Assembly (NCBI GenBank): GCA_903919205.1
Contig: CAIXHE010000056.1
Location: 1 to 37,206 of the forward strand
Direction of reading: 5' to 3'
Length of the DNA stretch: 37,206 nt
From: an uncultured Opitutaceae bacterium
GTDB taxonomy: Bacteria > Verrucomicrobiota > Verrucomicrobiia > Opitutales > Opitutaceae
Shown here: positions 3,604 to 36,734 of the stretch, in pieces
Numbering within the stretch: the stretch's first letter is position 1
Layout of the letters: every line of letters starts with the position of its first letter
Position numbers and translations under genes: made by a program
Notes under the pieces: generated by a model
The model's input: only the letters and a program-made list of their open reading frames with translations
Told to the model about the DNA's origin: nothing
Databases searched by the model: none

Positions 3604-3675
3604 GGCGAGGTCGCGGCGCCGCGGATCGTCACCGATCAATTTCTCGCCGCCCACCTTCGCGACCTGCTAGAATAA
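3604..3675 (+). pseudogene. C-terminal remnant of a RelE-type toxin
   Basis: The frame ending in the TAA at 3673-3675 encodes AAPRIVTDQFLAAHLRDLLE. This matches the C-terminus of the intact RelE-like toxin at 5087-5368 (AAPRSVVYEFLAAHLHDLLD) almost residue for residue, and both are followed immediately by AAAATGGCGG. No start codon or upstream toxin sequence is present, since the preceding bases run straight into the end of the LTxxQ-like gene. It is therefore a 3' stub of a second RelE module, cut off where the islet joins the flanking chromosome. Confidence 0.8.
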
Positions 3676-3789
3676 AATGGCGGAGAGAGGGGGAATCGAA
3701 TGCTGCAACGCGCTCTTCTCCCGGGATAGATGCCATGAGAACTCGCATTCTTGCTAGGGGCTAGCACGAGGGGAAAACGCTGAATTTTT
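3613..3789 (+). repeat. Direct repeat copy A (RelE tail, tRNA fragment, spacer)
   Basis: This stretch aligns by eye over its full length with 5306-5484. Shared blocks are the RelE tail, AAAATGGCGGAGAG plus a G-run, GAATGCT, TCTCCCGGG, TTGCTAGGG-CTAGC and GCTGAA. The block GCTAG-GGG-CTAGC is itself a short inverted repeat. The copies differ at many positions, so the duplication is not recent. Confidence 0.8.
3678..3701 (-). repeat. tRNA-Ser 3'-end fragment, direct repeat 1
   Basis: Read on the minus strand it gives a T-loop (TTCGATT), a C-run for the 3' strand of the T-stem, then TCTCTCC-G-CCA, which is the acceptor 3' strand, discriminator and CCA of a tRNA-Ser. The rest of the tRNA is missing. 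A T-loop-to-CCA segment is the usual identity core left by tyrosine recombinases that use tRNA 3' ends. Related copies start at 4509 and 5371, all preceded by AAAA on the plus strand. Confidence 0.8.
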
Positions 3790-3831
3790 GAGTGAGGAAC
3801 AGCTCGCGGTTGAGGATTTTGCTCTGGGCCG

Positions 3832-3863
3832 TTGACAAGGTCTATTTGTGGTCCGATTTTCGG
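3832..3863 (+). promoter_or_regulatory. Possible promoter/operator of the hicB-hicA operon
   Basis: TTGACA at 3832-3837 is a perfect -35 match. GATTTT at 3855-3860 is a weak -10 at 17 bp spacing. The palindrome CCGA-TTT-TCGG (3853-3863) ends 3 bp before the chosen start codon and could be the site for autorepression by the antitoxin. The -10 lies so close to the start that the transcript would be nearly leaderless. Confidence 0.4.
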
Positions 3864-3866
3864 TCC

Positions 3867-4271
3867 ATGAATTACTTCACGGTTTCCACTGCAAAACCGA
3901 AGTTGGGGCGGCTTCTCGACAGTGTCCTTAAGGATGGAGTTCCTGTGGTACTCCGGCGGGGTGACCGCTTCCTGCAGATAAGCGAGTACATCCTGCCACA
4001 CCCCAAGCCAAAGGGATCACGTGAACCTTTCACCGCTGAGGAAGAGCCATCAGACTATGGTCGCTCCAATGGTCTCCATTTTAGGGTCAATCTTTTTGAA
4101 TCGCACGAGGGCTGGTCCGTGAGCTGCCCGGACCTCCCAGGGTGCCACTCACAGGGAAGGAATCGCAAGGAAGCTCTGACAAAAATCAAAGAGGCAATTC
4201 GTCTCTGGCTAGAGGTCGAGACCGAGGACACAGGGTTGAAGCGCGTTGAGCAAGCCGATGTGCTTGTTTAG
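3867..4271 (+). CDS. hicB: HicB antitoxin with N-terminal Phd/YefM-like domain
   Basis: 134 residues. Residues 1-45 look like a Phd/YefM DNA-binding domain: STAKPKLGRLLDSVL, then GVPVVLRRGDRFLQISEYI, the 'AKxxLSxLLdxV...pvvitrrGkpvavi' pattern. Residues 70-118 are a HicB partial RNase H-like fold: FRVNLFESHEGWSVSCPDLP, then GCHSQGRNRKEALTKIKEAI. Most HicB proteins carry a ribbon-helix-helix or HTH domain at the C-terminus; here the DNA-binding part appears to be a different fold at the N-terminus. It lies 3 bp upstream of hicA, with the antitoxin-first order. It should neutralise the HicA mRNA interferase and repress its own operon. The start at 3867 opens the Phd-like domain; the in-frame ATG at 3792 would add 25 residues with no domain character. 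Confidence 0.8.
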   Translation: MNYFTVSTAKPKLGRLLDSVLKDGVPVVLRRGDRFLQISEYILPHPKPKGSREPFTAEEEPSDYGRSNGLHFRVNLFESHEGWSVSCPDLPGCHSQGRNRKEALTKIKEAIRLWLEVETEDTGLKRVEQADVLV

Positions 4272-4274
4272 CCG

Positions 4275-4487
4275 ATGCCCAGAATTCCAGGAGTCGGCCA
4301 GAGCGACGCCGTGAGGGTGTTTCAAAAGCTTGGCTATAGAATTGCTCGCCAGAGCGGACACGTGATCATGAGCAACGGGAAGATCCGCCTCTCGATCCCC
4401 AGACATTCGCCGATCAACGCGATTACGATGGGGGCCATCGCACGCGATGCCGGCCTCACCCCGGAGCAATTCCTTAAATTACTCTAG
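4275..4487 (+). CDS. hicA: HicA family mRNA interferase toxin
   Basis: 70 residues, the normal HicA length. The double-stranded RNA-binding-like fold is visible: an N-terminal helix (VRVFQKLGYRI), then RQSGHVIMSNG with the catalytic His29 in the G-H motif, then the strand LSIPRH, and a C-terminal helix ending in AGLTPEQFLKLL. HicA toxins cleave mRNA in the cytoplasm independently of ribosomes. It follows the fusion antitoxin by 3 bp, so translation is likely coupled. All expected residues are present and the toxin looks intact. Confidence 0.9.
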   Translation: MPRIPGVGQSDAVRVFQKLGYRIARQSGHVIMSNGKIRLSIPRHSPINAITMGAIARDAGLTPEQFLKLL

Positions 4488-4508
4488 ACGTCCTTCCTAG
4501 ACCCAAAA

Positions 4509-4571
4509 TGGCGGAGAGAGGGGGATTCGAACCCACGGTACGGTTTTACCCGTACAACGGTTCAGCAAATC
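4509..4571 (-). pseudogene. 3' half of a tRNA-Ser gene
   Basis: On the minus strand this contains the 3' strand of an anticodon stem (ACCGT), a complete variable arm with a 6-bp stem (GTACGG / CCGTAC around GTAAAA), the T-arm with loop TTCGAAT, and an acceptor 3' strand TCTCTCC-G-CCA. The long variable arm identifies class II, and the whole fits tRNA-Ser. The 5' half is missing locally. Its acceptor and anticodon-stem strands are complementary to the 5' half found at 8836-8870, and do not match the intact tRNA-Ser(GCT) at 8714-8803. The plus-strand frame through here (starting MAERGGFEP) is an artefact of translating a tRNA. Confidence 0.85.
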
Positions 4572-4848
4572 ATTTTGTTGTATCTTGGCGTGTGGTTACA
4601 GAGTCACCGATATCTCGTTTTTCCGCTCCGAAAAACAGAAGGGTGTACCCAGAAAAAAAATCACTCGAACCGGCTGATACCGGAGTCGATCCGCACTATT
4701 CCCTGCTAACAACCGAGAACAGGCGCCGCGTAGGTGACGATTTTAGGATTTTTTTTCTCTATCGTCGCCAACATCAGTCGGGCAAAGGCTCGCTAAACCG
4801 GGATCACCAGCGCTTGACGCGTGCCACTACTAAATATATCTTTTTTTC
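4572..4848. other. Non-coding stretch between hicA unit and phd
   Basis: No supported gene. A small hairpin, GTTTTTC (4617-4623) and GAAAAAC (4630-4636), lies in it. The last 40 bp are A+T-rich and probably contain the promoter of the Phd/RelE pair. The remainder shows no recognisable signal. Confidence 0.4.
4814..4840 (+). promoter_or_regulatory. Possible promoter of the phd-relE pair
   Basis: TTGACG (4814-4819) is a 5/6 match to the -35 box. TATATC (4835-4840) is a partial -10 at 15 bp, shorter than ideal. It ends 9 bp before the antitoxin start, so the transcript would have almost no leader. Confidence 0.35.
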
Positions 4849-5097
4849 ATGAAGGATACATACAGCATTAAGGACCTCCAAAGGGAGACGGCATCGGCGA
4901 TCGACGCAGCGGAAAGCGGAGTGCTTGTGACTGTGACCCGACACGACCGTCCCGTTGCTCATGTCATATCCGCAGCGCGTCTGGGCGGAATTCTAGAAAC
5001 GATGGAGTTGCTCGCAGATGCCGACTTTAACCGTCAGTTGAAACTTCTCAGATCCGGCAAGCTGAAGTTCCACCCTGCCGCATCCCTTGCCGACTAA
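4849..5097 (+). CDS. Phd/YefM family antitoxin
   Basis: 82 residues, a normal length. The N-terminal half matches the Phd/YefM dimerisation and DNA-binding domain: YSIKDLQRETASAIDAAESG, then VLVTVTRHDRPVAHVISAARL. The C-terminal part (LLADADFNRQLKLLRSGKLKF) is the helical toxin-binding tail. It overlaps the RelE-like toxin by 11 bp (antitoxin stop 5095-5097, toxin start 5087), the arrangement expected for translational coupling. It should bind and block the toxin and repress the operon. Confidence 0.88.
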   Translation: MKDTYSIKDLQRETASAIDAAESGVLVTVTRHDRPVAHVISAARLGGILETMELLADADFNRQLKLLRSGKLKFHPAASLAD

Positions 5098-5368
5098 AGT
5101 AACAGTCTCGGAGCAGGTGCGAGAGTACCAGAGGGCTCTTGCACCCGAGCCCCGGCGCCGGGTGAAGGCTGCCATCCTTGGTTTAGTAGACGGGAGCGGT
5201 GATATCAAAACCTTGCATGGCAATCTTGAAGGCCTGTCGCGTTTACGCGTAGGCCAACATCGAATGGTCTTTCGCCATCATGAGGGCCGCATCGAAGTTT
5301 TTTTTGCGGCGCCGCGTAGCGTCGTCTACGAGTTTCTCGCTGCCCACCTTCACGACCTGCTGGATTAA
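5087..5368 (+). CDS. RelE/ParE superfamily toxin
   Basis: 93 residues with the RelE fold signature: an N-terminal helical region (VREYQRALAPEPRRRVKAAI), the central LEGLSRLRVGQHRMVFRHHEGRIEVFFAAPRS pattern of strands with basic residues, and a C-terminal helix. The start is a TTG at 5087 inside the antitoxin gene; no better in-frame ATG exists near it. RelE-type members cleave mRNA on the ribosome, while ParE members poison gyrase; the conserved R-x-G-x-x-R core fits RelE better. The stop codon sits 2 bp from a tRNA-Ser 3' fragment. A truncated second copy of this gene's tail is at 3604-3675. Confidence 0.85.
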   Translation: MPTKVTVSEQVREYQRALAPEPRRRVKAAILGLVDGSGDIKTLHGNLEGLSRLRVGQHRMVFRHHEGRIEVFFAAPRSVVYEFLAAHLHDLLD

Positions 5369-5484
5369 AATGGCGGAGAGGGGGGGGGATTTGAATGCTC
5401 CCACCGACGAATCTCCCGGGCTAAAGGCGACGACAACGGGCGATTTTGCTAGGGCCTAGCGCTAGGCGAAATGCTGAAATTCCT
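5306..5484 (+). repeat. Direct repeat copy B (RelE tail, tRNA fragment, spacer)
   Basis: This is the counterpart of 3613-3789 and includes the last 21 codons of the intact RelE-like gene, the tRNA-Ser fragment and about 90 bp of spacer. The spacer contains GCTAGG-G-CCTAGC, an inverted repeat with 6-bp arms (near 5448-5460). Because it runs from coding into tRNA-derived and then non-coding sequence, the unit looks like a duplicated recombination boundary, not a gene duplication. Confidence 0.8.
5371..5396 (-). repeat. tRNA-Ser 3'-end fragment, direct repeat 3
   Basis: The minus strand reads T-loop (TTCAAAT), a run of nine C, then TCTCC-G-CCA. It is the same T-loop-to-CCA segment as at 3678 and 4509, with an expanded C-run. 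It directly follows the RelE-like toxin and marks the right end of the Phd/RelE unit. Confidence 0.75.
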
Positions 5485-5520
5485 CGCTTACCTTTCGAAA
5501 AGATCATGTTCCCTGCCGCT

Positions 5521-5541
5521 TATGCACGCTAAGCGTGCATA
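5521..5541. promoter_or_regulatory. Perfect palindrome, likely operator of higBA
   Basis: Arms TATGCACGCT and AGCGTGCATA flank a single A, a perfect 10-bp inverted repeat. It lies 8 bp upstream of the -35 box of the next operon, in the position expected for a dimeric HTH repressor such as HigA. There is no T-run, so it is not a good intrinsic terminator. Confidence 0.6.
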
Positions 5542-5548
5542 GTCTCGC

Positions 5549-5578
5549 TTGACATTATTAACGCTTCCCATGCATACT
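5549..5578 (+). promoter_or_regulatory. Promoter of higB-higA
   Basis: TTGACA (5549-5554) is a perfect -35 box. CATACT (5573-5578) matches 4 of 6 bases of the -10 box at 18 bp spacing. The start codon is 14 bp further on. Confidence 0.6.
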
Positions 5579-5592
5579 GTCTACATTGACTC

Positions 5593-5874
5593 ATGATTCA
5601 ATCATTTGCCGACAAGCCTACCCAAGCCCTCTGGCTAGGTCGTCGGCCACCCGAACTGCCACCCTCAATCCATAAAGTAGCCCTCAGAAAACTGACCCAA
5701 CTAGAAGCTGTCTCAAACCTCGACGAACTTCGAGTTCCCCCTGGCAACCGCCTCGAAGCGTTGAAGCGCGACCGTTTCGGCCAACATAGCATCCGAGTAA
5801 ACGATCAATACCGTGTCTGTTTCCGTTGGGACGGGAACAACGCCCACGACGTAGAAATCACCCATTACCATTAG
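5593..5874 (+). CDS. higB: HigB-type toxin (RelE superfamily)
   Basis: 93 residues, the standard HigB length. It begins MIQSFADK, like the HigB 'MIkSF.dk.t..lf.g' family start. It contains KVALRKLTQLEAVSNLDELR, the PPGNRLEALKRDRFGQHSIRVNDQYRVCFRW core, and ends DVEITHYH, the hallmark C-terminus of this family. HigB is a ribosome-dependent mRNA interferase. The toxin comes first and the antitoxin 4 bp later, the inverted order typical of higBA. All family blocks are present, so it looks functional. Confidence 0.93.
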   Translation: MIQSFADKPTQALWLGRRPPELPPSIHKVALRKLTQLEAVSNLDELRVPPGNRLEALKRDRFGQHSIRVNDQYRVCFRWDGNNAHDVEITHYH

Positions 5875-5878
5875 TCCG

Positions 5879-6175
5879 ATGAAAAACCATATCAATGTAC
5901 ATCCCGGCGAACTCCTCCGTGAGGAATTTCTGGTTCCTATGGGAATTACCGCCTACCGGCTCGCAAAGGACGCAAAGCTTCCGCACCAACGTGTAGGCGA
6001 GATCCTCAAAGAACGACGGGGAGTAACCGCGGAGACTGATCTCCACCTTTGTGCTTATTTTGGCCTAACCCCGGGCTACTGGTTGCGAGTGCAGCTCGCC
6101 TACGACCTTCGCGAAGCCTTAAACAAAGTCGGCAGCAAAATCAAAGCGGCTGTCCATCCTCTTAAGGCTGCTTGA
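5879..6175 (+). CDS. higA: HigA-type HTH antitoxin
   Basis: 98 residues. An XRE-type helix-turn-helix is clear: HPGELLREEFLVPMGITAYRLAKDAKLPHQRVGEILKERR (about residues 8-47), then ETDLHLCAYFGLTPGYWLRVQ, which is the HigA/VapI family pattern. It neutralises HigB and represses the operon, probably through the palindrome at 5521-5541. It sits 4 bp after higB, so the pair is one transcription unit. Confidence 0.93.
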   Translation: MKNHINVHPGELLREEFLVPMGITAYRLAKDAKLPHQRVGEILKERRGVTAETDLHLCAYFGLTPGYWLRVQLAYDLREALNKVGSKIKAAVHPLKAA

Positions 6176-6507
6176 AGCCGGCATAAGAGAGAGACTAGGG
6201 CTTCCATATGCGGTAGCTCCAAATTCTTAGCCGCGCAGTCGGAGGCGCAGTCGTCAAAACGGGCGGCGCCGAGGGACGGGAGTCGGGGGCCGAACGGAAC
6301 GGGGCGGCGCTGGGTGCTCTTCTTCTTGCAGTAGGGGCGCGGGAGCCCGGAGAACGCGCCAAGGGCGAGCTCGCGGATATCGATCAGGGAGGAGATGTCG
6401 GTGTTCATTTTATTAGGGTGGCCTAGTTCAATTTTAGGCGCTCCCGCGCAAACTCCCGCCACGTTGCACCTGCCTTCCCGCCGCTCCTCTCCTTCGCCGA
6501 AACCCTG

Positions 6508-6541
6508 CGAATGCCGGGTTACGACAATTCTCCGGCATTCG
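6508..6541. repeat. Inverted repeat with 10-bp arms
   Basis: CGAATGCCGG (6508-6517) and CCGGCATTCG (6532-6541) are perfect complements around a 14-nt loop. It is followed by a smaller hairpin (GCCTC/GAGGC near 6550) and then a C-run/G-run hairpin. A cluster like this resembles REP-type elements. No T-run is present to make it a terminator. Confidence 0.55.
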
Positions 6542-6568
6542 ATGTCGCGCCTCGGCGGAGGCCACGCT

Positions 6569-6591
6569 CTACCCCCCCCGGGGGGGGGTAG
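6569..6591. repeat. C-run/G-run hairpin
   Basis: CTA plus eight C (6569-6579) is followed directly by nine G plus TAG (6580-6591). This gives an 11-bp, nearly loopless inverted repeat. Such a structure is a strong replication and polymerase obstacle, and the run lengths may vary between cells. Confidence 0.65.
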
Positions 6592-6709
6592 CCCGTTGGT
6601 TCGCCCTTTGGCCAACTCCCTGGCAGGCGGAAGGTAGCTGAATTCTGTTCTTTTAATTTAACAAAAACATGGTAGTTTTTATTAAATAAATTTTGTCCCA
6701 CAAAGACGC

Positions 6710-7309
6710 ATGAGTGTTGAACAACAGATAATTAGCAGGATCTATGGCAATGGGAGGGGTAAGGCCTTCACCCCAGTCGATTTCGCGGACCTCGGCGACC
6801 GCAATTCCGTGGGGGTCGCCTTGTTCAGCCTAGCCAAGGAAGGGCGCATCCGGCGCCTGTCCCGGGGGCTCTACGACTATCCGGTGAAGCATCCCGAGCT
6901 TGGGCTGCTGAATCCCTCCCCGGAGCGGGTCGCCGAGGCCCTGGCCCGCGGGGCCGGCCTCCGGCTCCAGCCGGCCGGCGCCTTCGCGGCCAACCAGCTG
7001 GGCCTCTCGGAGCAGGTGCCTGCCCGGATCGTGTTCCTGACGGACGGGGCCGGGCGCAAGGTGTCCATAAAGCGCCTCGTGATCGAGCTGCGAAAGGCGG
7101 CCCCGCGGCAGCTCGCCCTGGCCGGCTCCATGAGCGGCACCGTCATCCAGGCGCTGCGGTACCTGGGTCGTGACCACATCACGCCCGCCCGCGTGGCGAC
7201 CCTCCGCAAGGTGCTGAAGCCGGAGGACCGCCGGCGGCTCCCGAAGGACGCACGCTTCGCCCCGGTCTGGATGCGCCCCTACCTGTTGGCCATCGCGGAG
7301 GGGGCCTGA
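6710..7309 (+). CDS. AbiEi-like antitoxin (DUF6088-type)
   Basis: 199 residues. The N-terminal winged-helix is visible (ISRIYGNGRGKAFTPVDFAD, then VGVALFSLAKEGRIRRLSRG, LYDYP), the form of AbiEi-type type IV antitoxins of the DUF6088 group. The middle contains PSPERVAEALARGAGLRLQP and AANQLGLSEQVPARIVFLTD, also typical. It lies 1 bp upstream of the nucleotidyltransferase toxin gene, the standard AbiE order. AbiEi represses its operon and counteracts AbiEii. Composition is GC-rich, unlike the A+T-richer toxin-antitoxin units to its left, which points to a separate arrival. Confidence 0.85.
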   Translation: MSVEQQIISRIYGNGRGKAFTPVDFADLGDRNSVGVALFSLAKEGRIRRLSRGLYDYPVKHPELGLLNPSPERVAEALARGAGLRLQPAGAFAANQLGLSEQVPARIVFLTDGAGRKVSIKRLVIELRKAAPRQLALAGSMSGTVIQALRYLGRDHITPARVATLRKVLKPEDRRRLPKDARFAPVWMRPYLLAIAEGA

Positions 7310-7310
7310 T

Positions 7311-8327
7311 ATGCGTGACTTCGCGCGCCGCACGACCGCGGACCGGGCCGCCTACTTTGGCGAGGCCGCGGCCAACCGGGGCGTGCCGGTCTGGATGCTC
7401 GAAAAGGATTTCTGGGTCTGCTGGCTCCTGCAGCAGGTCTTCGGGCTCCAGCATCTGAAGGACCACCTAGTGTTCAAGGGAGGCACCTCCCTCTCGAAGG
7501 TGTTCGGGGTCATCAAGCGGTTCTCTGAGGACATAGACCTGTCGGTCAGCCCAACCCTTCTCGGCTTTACCGAGGAGGGCCTGGACCAGGCCACAGGGCG
7601 ACCTTTTAAGGAGCTGTGCAGGAAGCTCGAGGCGGCATGCATCGAGGAGATCCAGGGGCGAACGCGGACACTTCTTGCTGAGGCCATCACCCGTGAGCTT
7701 GGCCCGGAGGGAGATGCGGGCTGGTCCCTAACATTTGAGATCGACCCACAGACCGAGTCGCCAGTGCTTCAGTTTCAGTTCCCGGTCAGCACCATCTTCG
7801 GGGGCTAGGTGCCGCCCCGGGTGAAATTGGAGTTCGGCTCGCTGACCGACCAACGCCCCGTGGGGGCGCATTCGGTGACCCCGATGATTGGGGAGGCTTA
7901 CCCTGCGGTGTTCTCGGTCTCGGTGGCCGCAGTCGTGGCCCTCGAGGTCGAGCGCACCTTCTGGGAGAAAGCGACTATCCTCCATGCGCAGTGCCACCGG
8001 GATCCGGCAAAGGTCATCCCGGACCGCTACGCACGCCATTACTCTGACCTTGCAGCGCTGGCGCGCCATGATCTGGGAGCCCAATGCCTGGCCCGGACGG
8101 ACCTGCTGGCCACGGTGGCTCACTACAAGAGCGTCTACTTCGCGTCCGGCTGGGCCAACTATCAGACTGCCAGGCCCGGCACCCTGCGGCTCGTGCCTCC
8201 GGAGTTCCGGTTGGCCCCACTGGCCGAGGACTACCGGCTCATGAGGGACATGTTTCTTGAGGAGCCACCCGCCTTTGACGTGGTCATGGCAACGCTCCAG
8301 GAACTGCAGGACCGCATCAACGGGTGA
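7311..8327 (+). pseudogene. AbiEii-type nucleotidyltransferase toxin, amber-interrupted
   Basis: The frame runs 338 codons but is cut by a TAG at 7806-7808 (codon 166). Before it are the nucleotidyltransferase motifs: EKDFWV, then FKGGTSLSK (GGTS at 57-60) and SEDIDLSV (Asp74 and Asp76). After it the same frame continues with family-like sequence: RVKLEFGSLTDQRP, LEVERTFWEKATILH, RYARHYSDLAAL. The family usually has an aromatic residue (Y) at the interrupted position, so a single TAY-to-TAG change explains it. The next codon is GTG and could allow reinitiation. AbiEii proteins transfer nucleotides to tRNA acceptor ends or related targets and block phage growth by halting the cell. As read, the toxin is truncated and probably inactive. 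Confidence 0.85.
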
Positions 8328-8713
8328 CGGACAGGCCTCGTAGGACCTAGCCGCCACGGGCCGACTCATTCAGATAAGATCTCGCGAGTGAGCTTCGGTT
8401 GAAGTGGAGCCATGTCTCCGTATGTTTGAAATCCTCTTTCCCCTTCCGTTCCTGTTCCTCGGCCTGCTGATGACCTTCAAGCGCGAAAGGTTTGCTGGAT
8501 GGTTCTGCAAAATCGGGAGGGGCACATGGCGTAGGGGTATGCGGGCATATTACATTCTAGCGTGATCTAGATTTTCGCGTGCATTGCCTAAATGACTGCC
8601 CAAACGCTGCTCGTTTTTTTCAGGAAGAAACGTACAACTTTATGGAGAAATGGGGTGAAAGATATCCATAATCAGTCACTTAGAATACACCTCGTGAATG
8701 CTCGATTTTTTAG
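8328..8713. other. Spacer between AbiEii and tRNA-Ser
   Basis: Apart from a possible 47-codon ORF (8422-8565) nothing is recognised. Composition from about 8570 to 8710 is A+T-rich. TTTTTTAG lies immediately downstream of the tRNA 3' end in the tRNA direction (read as its complement), so no minus-strand U-tract terminator is evident. Confidence 0.4.
8422..8565 (+). CDS. Small single-helix membrane protein, unknown
   Basis: 47 residues. A hydrophobic segment (ILFPLPFLFLGLLMTF) is followed by a strongly basic tail (KRERFAGWFCKIGRGTWRRG) and YYILA. The pattern of one membrane helix then positive charge is like many small bacterial membrane proteins and some type I toxins. No homologue is recognised and no strong ribosome binding site is seen, so it may be chance. 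Confidence 0.35.
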   Translation: MFEILFPLPFLFLGLLMTFKRERFAGWFCKIGRGTWRRGMRAYYILA

Positions 8714-8803
8714 TGGCGGAGGGAGGGGGATTCGAACCCCCGTAACCATTTCTGGTTAACAGGTTTAGCAAACCTGCGCCTTAAGCCACTCGGCCATCCC
8801 TCC
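8714..8803 (-). tRNA. tRNA-Ser(GCT)
   Basis: A 90-nt class II tRNA with encoded CCA. The acceptor stem GGAGGGA pairs with the 3' strand TCCCTCC. The anticodon stem CAGGT/ACCTG encloses TTGCTAA, so the anticodon is GCT (reads AGC/AGU). A long variable arm (TTAACCAGAAATGGTTA) and a T-arm with TTCGAAT between GGGGG and CCCCC are present. All stems are intact. Its 3' end faces the accessory islet. Confidence 0.96.
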
Positions 8804-8835
8804 GTGATCTACTGCGCCTTTGTAGCGGTGTTTGG

Positions 8836-8870
8836 GAAACCGTCCCTTTCGGCCACTCAGGCACCTCTCC
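8836..8870 (-). pseudogene. 5' half of a second tRNA-Ser gene
   Basis: On the minus strand it reads acceptor 5' strand GGAGAGG, then TG, a D-arm (CCTGAGTGGCCGAAAGG) typical of tRNA-Ser, and the anticodon stem 5' strand ACGGT followed by TT. Sequence then diverges inside the anticodon loop, and no variable arm or T-arm follows before tRNA-Ser(GCT) begins 32 bp away. The missing 3' half, with complementary ACCGT and TCTCTCC strands, is at 4509-4571. Confidence 0.8.
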
Positions 8871-33797: not shown

Positions 33798-33941
33798 GTC
33801 GCAGTGTGGGAAGCCGCGCGGCCCCTAGGCGACCTTTTTTTCCGGCGGCGCTTGGACGATTGACAGGCCGCGAGATGAGGCGTTCAGATAACCGTTCCGC
33901 GCAGGCCGCGGTTGTCACTCAAACCCATCCATTCCCACGCC

Positions 33942-36734
33942 ATGGCCAAGAAATCAAAGCTCAAGAAGGTCGCCGCTAAGGCAGCGGCCCCCGCCAAGAA
34001 AACCGCCTCCACGAAGGCCCCAAAATACGTCTACGCCTGGGGCGCAGGAAAGGCGGACGGCAACGGCGGGATGAAGAACCTGCTGGGCGGCAAGGGAGCC
34101 AACCTCGCCGAGATGACCCGCATCGGGCTGCCGGTGCCCCCGGGATTCACGATCACGACGGAGGTCTGCACCTATTATTACGCCAACAAGCGCACCTACC
34201 CGGCCTCCCTGAACGCCCAGATCCAGTCGGGCATCAAGAACATGGAGAGGGTGATGGGCTACAAGTTCGGCGACGCCGCGGGCTTCCCGCTGCTGGTCGC
34301 CGTGCGCTCGGGCGCGCGCGACTCGATGCCGGGCATGATGGACACGATCCTCAACCTCGGCCTGAACGACCAGACGGTCCTCTCGCTCGCCAAGGCCACG
34401 CAGAACGAGCGCTTCGCCTGGGACTGCTACCGGCGCTTCATCCAGATGTACGGGGACGTCGTCCTCGGCGTGCAGAAGAAGGAGGGCGAGGACCACGAGC
34501 CGTTCGAGACCGTGATCGAGGGTTTCAAGCACGAGAAGTACCACACCAACATCGAGGACTCGAAGCTGAGCGCCGAAGACCAGAGGGAGCTCGTCTCGCG
34601 CTTCAAGCAGCTGGTGAAGGACCGCACGGGCCGCGTGTTCCCGAACGACCCCTGGGAGCAGCTCCTCGGCGCCGCGGGCGCCGTGTTCGGCTCCTGGATG
34701 AACGACCGCGCGATCGTCTACCGCCGCAAGTACAACATCCCCACCGAATGGGGCACCGCGGTGAACGTGCAGGCCATGGTCTACGGCAACACCGGCGAGA
34801 CCTCGGGCTCCGGAGTCGCATTCACCCGCAACCCCGCCAACGGCACGAACGAGTTCTACGGGGAGTTCCTGATCAACGCCCAGGGCGAGGACGTGGTGGC
34901 CGGCGTGCGCACGCCCGAGCCCGTGCTCAAGCTGAAGGACCAGATGCCCAAGTCCTACGCGGAGCTGCTGCGCGTGCGCTCGATCCTCGAGAAGCACTTC
35001 AAGGACGTCCAGGACATCGAGTTCACGATCCAGGAGGGCAAGCTGTTCATGCTGCAGACGCGCAACGGCAAGCGCACGTCGATGGCCGCGCTCAAGTTCT
35101 CGATCGATATGGTCCGCGAGAAGCTGATCGACTGGAAGACGGCGATCCTGCGCAACCCTGCCGACCAGCTGGAGCAGCTCTTGGCCCCGGTCTTCGACCT
35201 CGCAGAGGTCAAGAAGGCCAAGGTGATCGCCACCGGCCTGCCAGCGGGCCCCGGTGCCGCCACCGGCAAGATCTACTTCAACGCAGACCGCGCCGTCGCC
35301 TCCGCCGAAAAGGGCGAGAAGGTGCTGCTCGTGCGCGTCGAGACCTCGCCCGAGGACCTGCGCGGCATGATCGCGGCCGAGGGCATCCTCACCGCCCGCG
35401 GCGGCGTCTCCTCCCACGCGGCCCTGGTCGCCCGCCAGATGGGCAAGGTCTGCGTGTGCGGCGCGGCCGCGCTCCAGGTCGACTACGACAAGAAGACGGT
35501 CACCGTATCGGGGCAGACGTTCAGCGAGGGGGACTTCCTCTCGATCGACGGCACCCTCGGCGTCGTGTACGCCGGCCAGATCAAGACGGCCCCCTCCGAG
35601 ATCGTCGCGGGGCTCATCCACGGCGACAAGGAGGCACAGGCCACCGAGAAGTTCCGCAACTACAGCCAGCTGATGAAGTGGTGCTCGCAGGCCACGAAGC
35701 TCACCGTGCGCACGAACGCCGACACCCCCGAGCAGGCCCAGAACGCCATCGCGTTCGGAGCGGTCGGCATCGGCCTCACCCGCACCGAGCACATGTTCTT
35801 CGAGGGCAACCGCATCGACGCCATGCGCGAGATGATCCTCGCCAACAGCCTTGAGGAGCGCGAGACCGCCCTGGCCAAGCTGCTGCCCTACCAGCGCGAG
35901 GACTTCCTCGGAATCTTCAAGGCGCTGAAGGGCTTCCCGGCGACCATCCGCTTCCTCGACCCGCCGCTGCACGAGTTCCTCCCGAACTCGAAGGAGTCGC
36001 AGATGGACCTCGCCCGGAAGCTCAACATCCCGGTCGAGAAGATCATCCAGCGCGTGAACGAGCTGCACGAGTTCAACCCGATGCTCGGCTTCCGCGGCTG
36101 CCGCCTCGGGATCAAGTACCCGGAGATCACCGCCATGCAGGCCCGCGCCGTCTTCGAGGCCGCGGCCGAGGCGAACAAGGCCGGCTTCAAGGCCAAGCCC
36201 GAGATCATGATCCCGCTGGTCGGCTTCAAGAAGGAGCTGGACCTGCAGGTCGCGGTCGTCCACCAGGTCGCCAAGGCCGTGCAGGCCGAGCGCAAGACCA
36301 AGATCGCCTACACGGTAGGCACCATGATCGAGATCCCGCGCGGCGCCCTGACGGCCGACGAGATCGCGCACACCGCCGAGTTCTTCAGCTTCGGAACGAA
36401 CGACCTGACGCAGACGTGCCTCGGCATGTCGCGCGACGACTCCGGCTCGTTCCTCGGCGCCTACCAGGACGCCGAGATCATCAAGAAGAACCCCTTCGCC
36501 TCGATCGACCAGACCGGCGTGGGCCAGCTGATGAAGATCGCGATCGAGAAGGGCTCGCAGACGCGCCCGGGCATCAAGCTCGGCATCTGCGGGGAGCACG
36601 GCGGCGACCCGGACTCGGTCAAGTTCTGCCACAAGCTCGGCCTCACCTACGTCTCGTGCAGCCCGTACCGCGTCCCCGTGGCGCGCCTCGCGGCGGCGCA
36701 GGCGGCGGTGTCCGAGCTGCTCGCCAAGAAATAG
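33942..36734 (+). CDS. ppdK: Pyruvate, phosphate dikinase with lysine-rich N-terminal tail
   Basis: 930 residues. The core begins with [20 protein letters not shown], then [10 protein letters not shown], matching the usual N-terminus. ATP-grasp sequences ([20 protein letters not shown]) follow. The swivelling His domain has [12 protein letters not shown] with catalytic His492, and the PEP/pyruvate domain has [19 protein letters not shown] and [10 protein letters not shown] with Cys883. It interconverts pyruvate, ATP and phosphate with PEP, AMP and pyrophosphate. About 26 residues before the core are lysine/alanine-rich ([20 protein letters not shown]). No other start codon lies between 33942 and the core, so the tail appears real. 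An MFS gene starts 16 bp downstream. Confidence 0.96.

Follow-up and report, generated by a model that had tools for sequence, protein, structure and literature searches.

Toxin-antitoxin cassettes stacked at a broken tRNA-Ser(GCT) gene in an Opitutaceae bacterium: probable successive site-specific insertions

A native tRNA-Ser(GCT) gene in two pieces

The window analysed here, the entire 37,206-nucleotide (nt) contig CAIXHE010000056.1 (C56) of the uncultured Opitutaceae assembly GCA_903919205.1 (G000; 3.26 Mb, 174 contigs, 87.7% complete), carries a native tRNA-Ser(GCT) gene in two pieces on its minus strand, with small toxin-antitoxin (TA) cassettes and an intact tRNA-Ser(GCT) gene of another lineage lying between them. 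It was compared with a genus set of 13 genomes, G000 included, in which G-numbers label genomes and L-numbers loci. The orphan 5' part (8830-8870) corresponds to positions 1-41 of the genus tRNA-Ser(GCT), with the anticodon CCC, and the orphan 3' half (4505-4571), which forms the right end of a Phd/RelE-like TA cassette, corresponds to the same gene from position 32 to four bases beyond the CCA. Both assignments rest on similarity to the fetched genus genes, with E = 3.5e-10 for 8870-8830 and E = 1.7e-20 for 4569-4505.

The two pieces share positions 32-41, ten positions of the anticodon loop, as the duplicated core of a site-specific recombination would leave. Against the intact gene of G004, G006, G008 and G010 the 5' piece matches at 39/41 positions and the 3' piece at 59/61; the two differences in the 5' piece change the anticodon from GCT to CCC, and those in the 3' piece fall at positions 38 and 66. 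The 5' piece matches the neighbouring intact tRNA-Ser(GCT) at only 29/41. An intact tRNA-Ser(GCT) containing both pieces is present in G001, G002, G004, G005, G006, G008 and G010, and no second intact native-type copy was seen in any of these seven genomes. On these alignments, both halves are assigned to one native tRNA-Ser(GCT) gene that is intact in sister species. An earlier sequence-only reading had placed the halves at 8836-8870 and 4509-4571, derived them from one gene distinct from the intact neighbour, and proposed that an insertion or rearrangement in the anticodon loop had broken this copy; the comparison agrees on each point, with site-specific insertion the most likely cause, and no better partner for either half was found as another native-type copy in G000, within an assembly of the completeness given. 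The reading erred in taking the gene for an isoacceptor of UCN codons, as the native tRNA-Ser(GCT) reads AGY codons, and in expecting relatives to hold an uninterrupted tRNA-Ser beside the present tRNA-Ser(GCT), since in relatives it is the tRNA-Ser(GCT) that is the uninterrupted gene.

Trans-spliced split tRNAs occur in some archaea, and the strands that would pair are retained in both halves here. However, the pieces overlap, the 5' piece carries the anticodon CCC, an intact tRNA-Ser(GCT) is present, and the extensions that would have to join the halves pair no better than shuffled sequence (109/500 shuffles were as good). A working split tRNA is therefore extremely improbable, and was rejected. 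A group I intron in the anticodon loop was likewise rejected, as the Rfam scan of the window at gathering thresholds lists a tRNA alone.

The intact gene (8714-8803, minus strand) is the only tRNA gene that ARAGORN and Rfam detect in the window. Among 35 tRNA matches in G000, eight are at least 80 nt long, namely Ser(GCT), Ser(GGA), Ser(TGA), four Leu and one Tyr, making 8714-8803 the sole tRNA-Ser(GCT) seen in this genome. When named genomes were searched with a pattern for the 5' part of the native gene, 117 stretches matched, and the 80 among the matches listed were mostly from Bacteroidota, with eight from Opitutaceae. A pattern for the tRNA 3' end, allowing at most three mismatches, occurs three times in the window, one of them in the intact gene, and not once in 100 shuffles. 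There are two further tRNA-Ser 3' fragments in the window, at 5395-5365 and 3700-3673.

A stack of toxin-antitoxin cassettes

Reading away from the intact tRNA, the stack comprises an AbiE region, HigBA, the fragment at 5395-5365, the Phd/RelE-like pair, the 3' half at 4569-4505, HicBA, the fragment at 3700-3673, and a scrap of further sequence. The HigBA, Phd/RelE-like and HicBA cassettes each finish in a tRNA-Ser 3' piece, and their genes are all on the plus strand. HigB (5593-5874) and HigA (5879-6175) were identified by Pfam, and are followed by a cassette end of about 80 nt, of a kind we call type B, joined to a tRNA fragment running from the T-loop to the CCA (together 5365-5477, minus strand; similarity and alignment). 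Next come a Phd/YefM antitoxin (4849-5097), which scores under the Pfam cut-off and over that of NCBIfam, and a partner (5087-5368) with no match in Pfam, NCBIfam or the PDB, which we take to be RelE-like from its position and a motif. HicB (3792-4271) and HicA (4275-4487), again assigned by Pfam, precede a second type B end and tRNA-Ser fragment (3673-3782, minus strand; similarity, pattern and alignment). Beyond it, self-comparison found 81 nt (3613-3693) that are 84% like 5306-5386, a tRNA fragment with the end of the RelE-like gene, and are likely the remnant of a further cassette.

Nearest to the intact tRNA is an AbiE-type pair recognised by Pfam (6710-8327, plus strand), comprising AbiEi (DUF6088; 6710-7309) and AbiEii (7311-8327), the latter with its frame broken by an in-frame stop at 7806-7808. 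The G+C content of the TA cassettes is 49-56% (intervals spanning 3750-6149) and that of the flanks 67-71%, consistent with foreign DNA; the AbiE stretch ranges from 56 to 72%.

Cassettes shared between species at an orthologous locus

The PPDK gene of the window (33912-36734) and the tRNA-Ser(GCT) locus lie on one contig in constant relative orientation in G000, G002, G005, G006 and G008, although the PPDK gene of G008 is a contig-edge piece; in each of the eight remaining genomes, either the two fall on separate contigs or an intact gene was not placed. The locus is thus orthologous across the genomes with this linkage. PPDK synteny was used because the flanks tried for an empty-site test, a TPR gene and an 867-amino-acid gene, belong to multi-copy families and yielded no clean empty site.

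Window positions 4504-5386, encompassing the Phd/RelE-like cassette, are 94.6% identical over 886 bp to positions 6521-5636 of locus L017 in G006, with tRNA pieces terminating the alignment on both sides. There, the tRNA ahead of the shared block is intact, and the orphan 3' half is present as well; hence the orphan 3' half is assigned to the Phd/RelE-like insertion, regardless of what subsequently severed the 5' piece. This speaks directly to the simplest explanation of the window, and the one the sequence-only reading had favoured, that the halves were separated by one element inserting into the anticodon loop. Such an event would account for halves of one gene type and their ten-position overlap, but not for the orphan 3' half of G006, which follows an intact tRNA and has a similar cassette and similar sequence upstream, nor for the extra tRNA fragment between the halves and another beyond them. 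We therefore regard a single insertion as improbable.

The other cassettes are also shared. HigBA is 84.2% identical over 812 bp to a block of G010 that starts immediately after the intact tRNA and reaches a tRNA fragment, and HicBA is 76.2% identical over 815 bp to G002, with one edge of the similarity at a tRNA fragment. PPDK identities to the window are 85.9% for G006, 80.9% for G010, 86.3% for G002 and 86.0% for G003, in the last of which the Phd/RelE-like genes are 78.6% identical. Hence cassette divergence departs from species divergence, as represented by PPDK, in both directions.

This recurrence also bears on whether the window is a chimera of the metagenome assembly, joined at a repeated tRNA end. 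Such repeats do disturb assembly, as contig C30 of G003 starts inside one (at position 2), but genomes assembled independently contain these cassettes and orphan pieces too, and PPDK synteny holds, leaving little room for an artefact of this kind. Outside bacterial chromosomes, no relative of the Phd antitoxin and no match to the native tRNA core were found among viral contigs, where the type B motif had one match with no tRNA end near it. There were 20 matching plasmid records, and among the eight matches listed only a HigBA piece or a tRNA end was matched.

A dedicated end common to unrelated cassettes

Nine cassette ends could be aligned over approximately 80 nt ahead of the T-loop, revealing one motif common to differing TA families. 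A sequence model built from these nine gave 11 full-length matches in 6/13 genus genomes, G000 included; nine were the ends used to build it and the two others were G003:C12:835 and G008:C162:16127, with all further matches being tRNA 3' ends, plus one weak match in G002. Across 250 family genomes the model found the same six genomes and none of other genera (E <= 1e-8), and a 23-base pattern (at most three mismatches) matched 3/150 genomes, all within the genus. TA pairs border nine of the 11 type B ends (HigBA at two, HicBA at two, RelB with a YafQ-like partner at four, and the Phd/RelE-like pair at one), and all nine are antisense to the tRNA. Six elements have tRNA sequence directly at both ends (the window's HicBA, two on G003:C30, two in G008 and one on G010:C133).

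Other end types exist. Anticodon-loop ends are found at the window's 3' half and in G006, and a different T-loop end accompanies HigBA and Phd/PIN cassettes in G005. Both the HigBA pair and the Phd/RelE-like pair are found with at least two end types, and nine CCA-to-CCA intervals, with type B and other ends, all measure 757-952 bp. No hairpin resembling attC emerged from the shared end, with none of 16 predicted pairs changing on both sides and an unfavourable covariation term, although no dedicated attC search was made. Larger, non-TA cargo was seen in G008, whose second type B element (2.8 kb) contains an acyltransferase-SGNH gene (L250, 1384-3997).

These regularities bear on the proposal that the cassettes are an inert residue of larger integrative elements, islands that have decayed in the manner of CIMEs (compared below) and no longer move, whose TA pairs persist because their loss is toxic. 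The same tRNAs are indeed used by larger integrase elements, and several pieces have decayed (3613-3693, AbiEii with its stop, and the HigBA of G005). Against this stand the narrow range of the CCA-to-CCA intervals, a dedicated end common to unrelated TA families, and the 94.6%-identical cassette in two genomes with PPDK genes only 85.9% identical. We consider inert remnants unlikely, though this is an alternative to be taken seriously.

Orientation is similarly regular. In tRNA-Ser islets 16/17 TA loci are antisense to the tRNA: three in the window, one in G002, three in G003, two in G005, one in G006, two in G008 and two in G010, together with the VapBC loci at tRNA-Ser(GGA) of G000 and G006. 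One of the G005 loci is counted by its DNA similarity to HigBA, and one of the G008 loci is a BrnT without an identified partner. Two antisense pairs were kept outside this tally: the AbiE pair, with its unclear right border, and a Phd/RelE-like pair in G009. The latter (L023, 6462-6973) precedes an intact tRNA-Ser(GCT) by 0.8 kb, and no flanking tRNA fragment was found beside it.

A likely substitute tRNA from another lineage

The intact tRNA-Ser(GCT) of the window matches the native gene at 68/92 positions and that of G011 at 77/90. It was matched in 24/200 family genomes, its own included (E <= 1e-14), with G011 the best at 86% and Opitutaceae of other genera next at 78-82%. A phage origin was rejected, as the 12 matching phage records were all 60-80% identical, with the eight among the matches listed at 75.5-78.5% and covering the tRNA alone, leaving G011 nearer. 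Together with the state of the native gene, ARAGORN, Rfam and these comparisons point to a likely substitute: a tRNA-Ser(GCT) of another lineage apparently replaces the broken native gene. It follows the 5' piece by 26 nt, and hence probably uses the native promoter.

Orphan 5' pieces also lie upstream of intact tRNA-Ser(GCT) in G002 and G005, and upstream of tRNA-Ser(GGA) in G000 and G006. At the last two loci (L032, 2444-3734 on G000:C2; L053, 3366-4590 on G006:C26) VapBC sits between the orphan 5' piece and the intact gene downstream, and the promoter region seems to have been duplicated together with the 5' part. A 74-nt 3' part of tRNA-Ser(GGA) without its 5' part was found on G000:C47 (L049, 331-404), 100% identical to the C2 copy. 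Flanking the intact tRNA-Ser(GCT) of G002 (L019, 10201-10292) is a roughly 20-bp inverted repeat, discerned by eye. In the Islander study, 159 islands had 5' fragments and 3,760 had 3' fragments (PMC4383910), making 5' fragments the rarer side.

A candidate recombinase encoded elsewhere

In G002 and G005 the gene immediately 3' of tRNA-Ser encodes a divergent tyrosine recombinase roughly 400 amino acids long. Pfam gives it either a match short of the cut-off or none at all, and in G002 the protein was placed by 61% identity to that of G005. Relatives occur in 68/120 family genomes (E <= 1e-10), some as fragments. In 17/30 loci the gene is immediately preceded by a tRNA (Ser at 11, Glu at five, Asp at one); 12 lack a tRNA call, and one Arg call, spanning contig ends, is not trusted. 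Two arginines, a lysine and a tyrosine are invariant across 16 aligned members, at what we take to be the catalytic boxes, and the usual histidines are substituted. The family provides a candidate enzyme for the TA cassettes, and only a candidate because the elements that encode it bear ends unlike theirs. As the TA cassettes lack the gene, the enzyme that moves them, probably a tyrosine recombinase, would have to act in trans.

Probable successive insertions at a tRNA platform

These observations are best explained by successive site-specific insertions at the native tRNA-Ser(GCT), catalysed in trans, in an integron-like arrangement with a tRNA gene as the platform, to which we assign a probability of roughly 0.8. 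The native gene would be the docking site for sub-kilobase cassettes, each carrying one TA pair. A cassette circle would recombine with the tRNA gene in either the T-loop or the anticodon loop, the cassette supplying the missing part of the tRNA such that the gene is made whole, while the displaced native 3' part stays at the far end. Newcomers would go in beside the tRNA, and the array would preserve its own history. HicBA would have arrived first. The Phd/RelE-like cassette would have been second, entering via the anticodon loop and leaving the 3' half at 4505-4571 ahead of HicBA, and HigBA third, via the T-loop. A later event would then have cut the tRNA at its anticodon loop, placing the foreign tRNA-Ser(GCT) and the AbiE region between the 5' piece and HigBA, after which the surviving native 5' piece would have decayed. 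With the native 3' part lost or degraded at 6176, this last step may have been an insertion, a replacement, or an insertion plus a deletion.

Several points weigh against this explanation. Firstly, the movement of cassettes is a reconstruction from sequence, with excision, circle and integration all unobserved. Secondly, the window is imperfect: the native 3' part expected near 6180, beside the HigBA edge at 6176, is gone or decayed, leaving the last event without a clean right boundary; the HicBA similarity to G002 halts about 30 nt before the window's tRNA piece; and a misjoin at 8803-8830 is possible. Thirdly, the type B elements are not uniform. Two of the 11 ends have no TA pair (G008:C162:16127, and one in G005 that adjoins an 8-kb stretch of ordinary-looking genes, such as CheB, GH15 and SDR), and the far-side tRNA is decayed or was not found at the window's HigBA, G010:C158, G002 and G003:C12, and is 8 kb off in G005. 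Fourthly, the recombinase is not linked to the cassettes. Its family was absent from the type B intervals and window positions 4500-8870 in a search that found two control genes, and those open reading frames (ORFs) there that were scanned with Pfam, not the full set, are TA or other genes; its own elements have end sequences unlike type B; and in G000 there is just a contig-edge fragment of it (L214, 1-500, on G000:C40), beside a tRNA-Glu. Finally, the exception to antisense orientation is a ParE gene (L039, 7270-7569) that runs with the tRNA in a recombinase-bearing element.

The broader proposal is more tentative, and we hold it as possible while doubting it more than we favour it. It is that one Opitutaceae genus has a tRNA-based analogue of the integron, in which minimal TA cassettes are captured at tRNA-Ser, ordered in time and exchanged between species, using a recombinase encoded elsewhere and a single asymmetric site (an 80-nt arm plus a T-loop-to-CCA core). 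Ends and cargo would recombine as modules, and traffic at the site could destroy the platform tRNA, leading to its replacement from another lineage. The mobility of single chromosomal TA pairs is seldom visible; at this locus the unit is sharply bounded, its site is shared, and the order of insertion can be read. The locus also appears to record the loss of an essential tRNA gene at the platform, and its replacement.

Comparison with known systems

Integron arrays consist of small, TA-rich cassettes in the same direction, each with one complex site, the newest nearest the platform. The arrays described here similarly have small same-direction TA cassettes, the newest apparently by the platform, but have no covarying hairpin in the shared end, are built on a tRNA gene, and have TA genes that read towards the platform.

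Other systems resemble individual aspects. The dif modules of Acinetobacter plasmids are small, often carry TA pairs such as higBA, and are moved by XerCD (PMC13141974). They thus share with the present cassettes small TA units without an enzyme of their own, but are defined by Xer sites on plasmids rather than by tRNA gene fragments on a chromosome. The cis-mobilisable elements (CIMEs) are described as decayed integrative and conjugative or integrative and mobilisable elements that lack integration or transfer genes, retain attL and attR, and undergo site-specific accretion (PMC5704250). In the present cassettes no gene of the local recombinase family was found (transfer genes were not searched for as such), tRNA sequence directly bounds both ends of six of the 11 type B elements, and elements are stacked; unlike CIMEs, most consist of one TA pair with a shared dedicated end. 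Larger integrase elements use the same tRNAs, with end sequences that differ from those of the TA cassettes.

Islander looks for a regenerated target tRNA with a displaced fragment, and for an integrase in each tandem member (PMC4383910). The former is found in G006, G008 and G010, with the regenerated native gene of the window having been lost; for the latter, the local recombinase family yielded no member in the type B intervals or at window 4500-8870. Island finders with this demand would miss such arrays.

Another close parallel comes from the ssrA islands of Dehalococcoides, which lie in tandem downstream of a tRNA-like gene, bounded by 20-bp repeats of its 3' end, with insertion in the T-loop and a 15-bp motif just ahead of the repeat (PMC3146451). 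Fifteen lack an integration module, 16 have one that includes a serine recombinase, and they carry rdhA genes (PMC3146451). The tandem stack, the 3'-end repeats, the T-loop site, the motif before the repeat, and members without an integration module are common to both systems; what differs here is the mostly sub-kilobase TA cassettes on tRNA-Ser, the use of both T-loop and anticodon-loop sites, and a foreign-lineage tRNA at the platform. Among the titles and starts of abstracts listed from the open-licence literature, with the terms used, none described an array of TA cassettes on a tRNA gene. The components are each familiar in kind, from tRNA islands, CIMEs, ssrA islands and dif modules, and it is their combination that is new.

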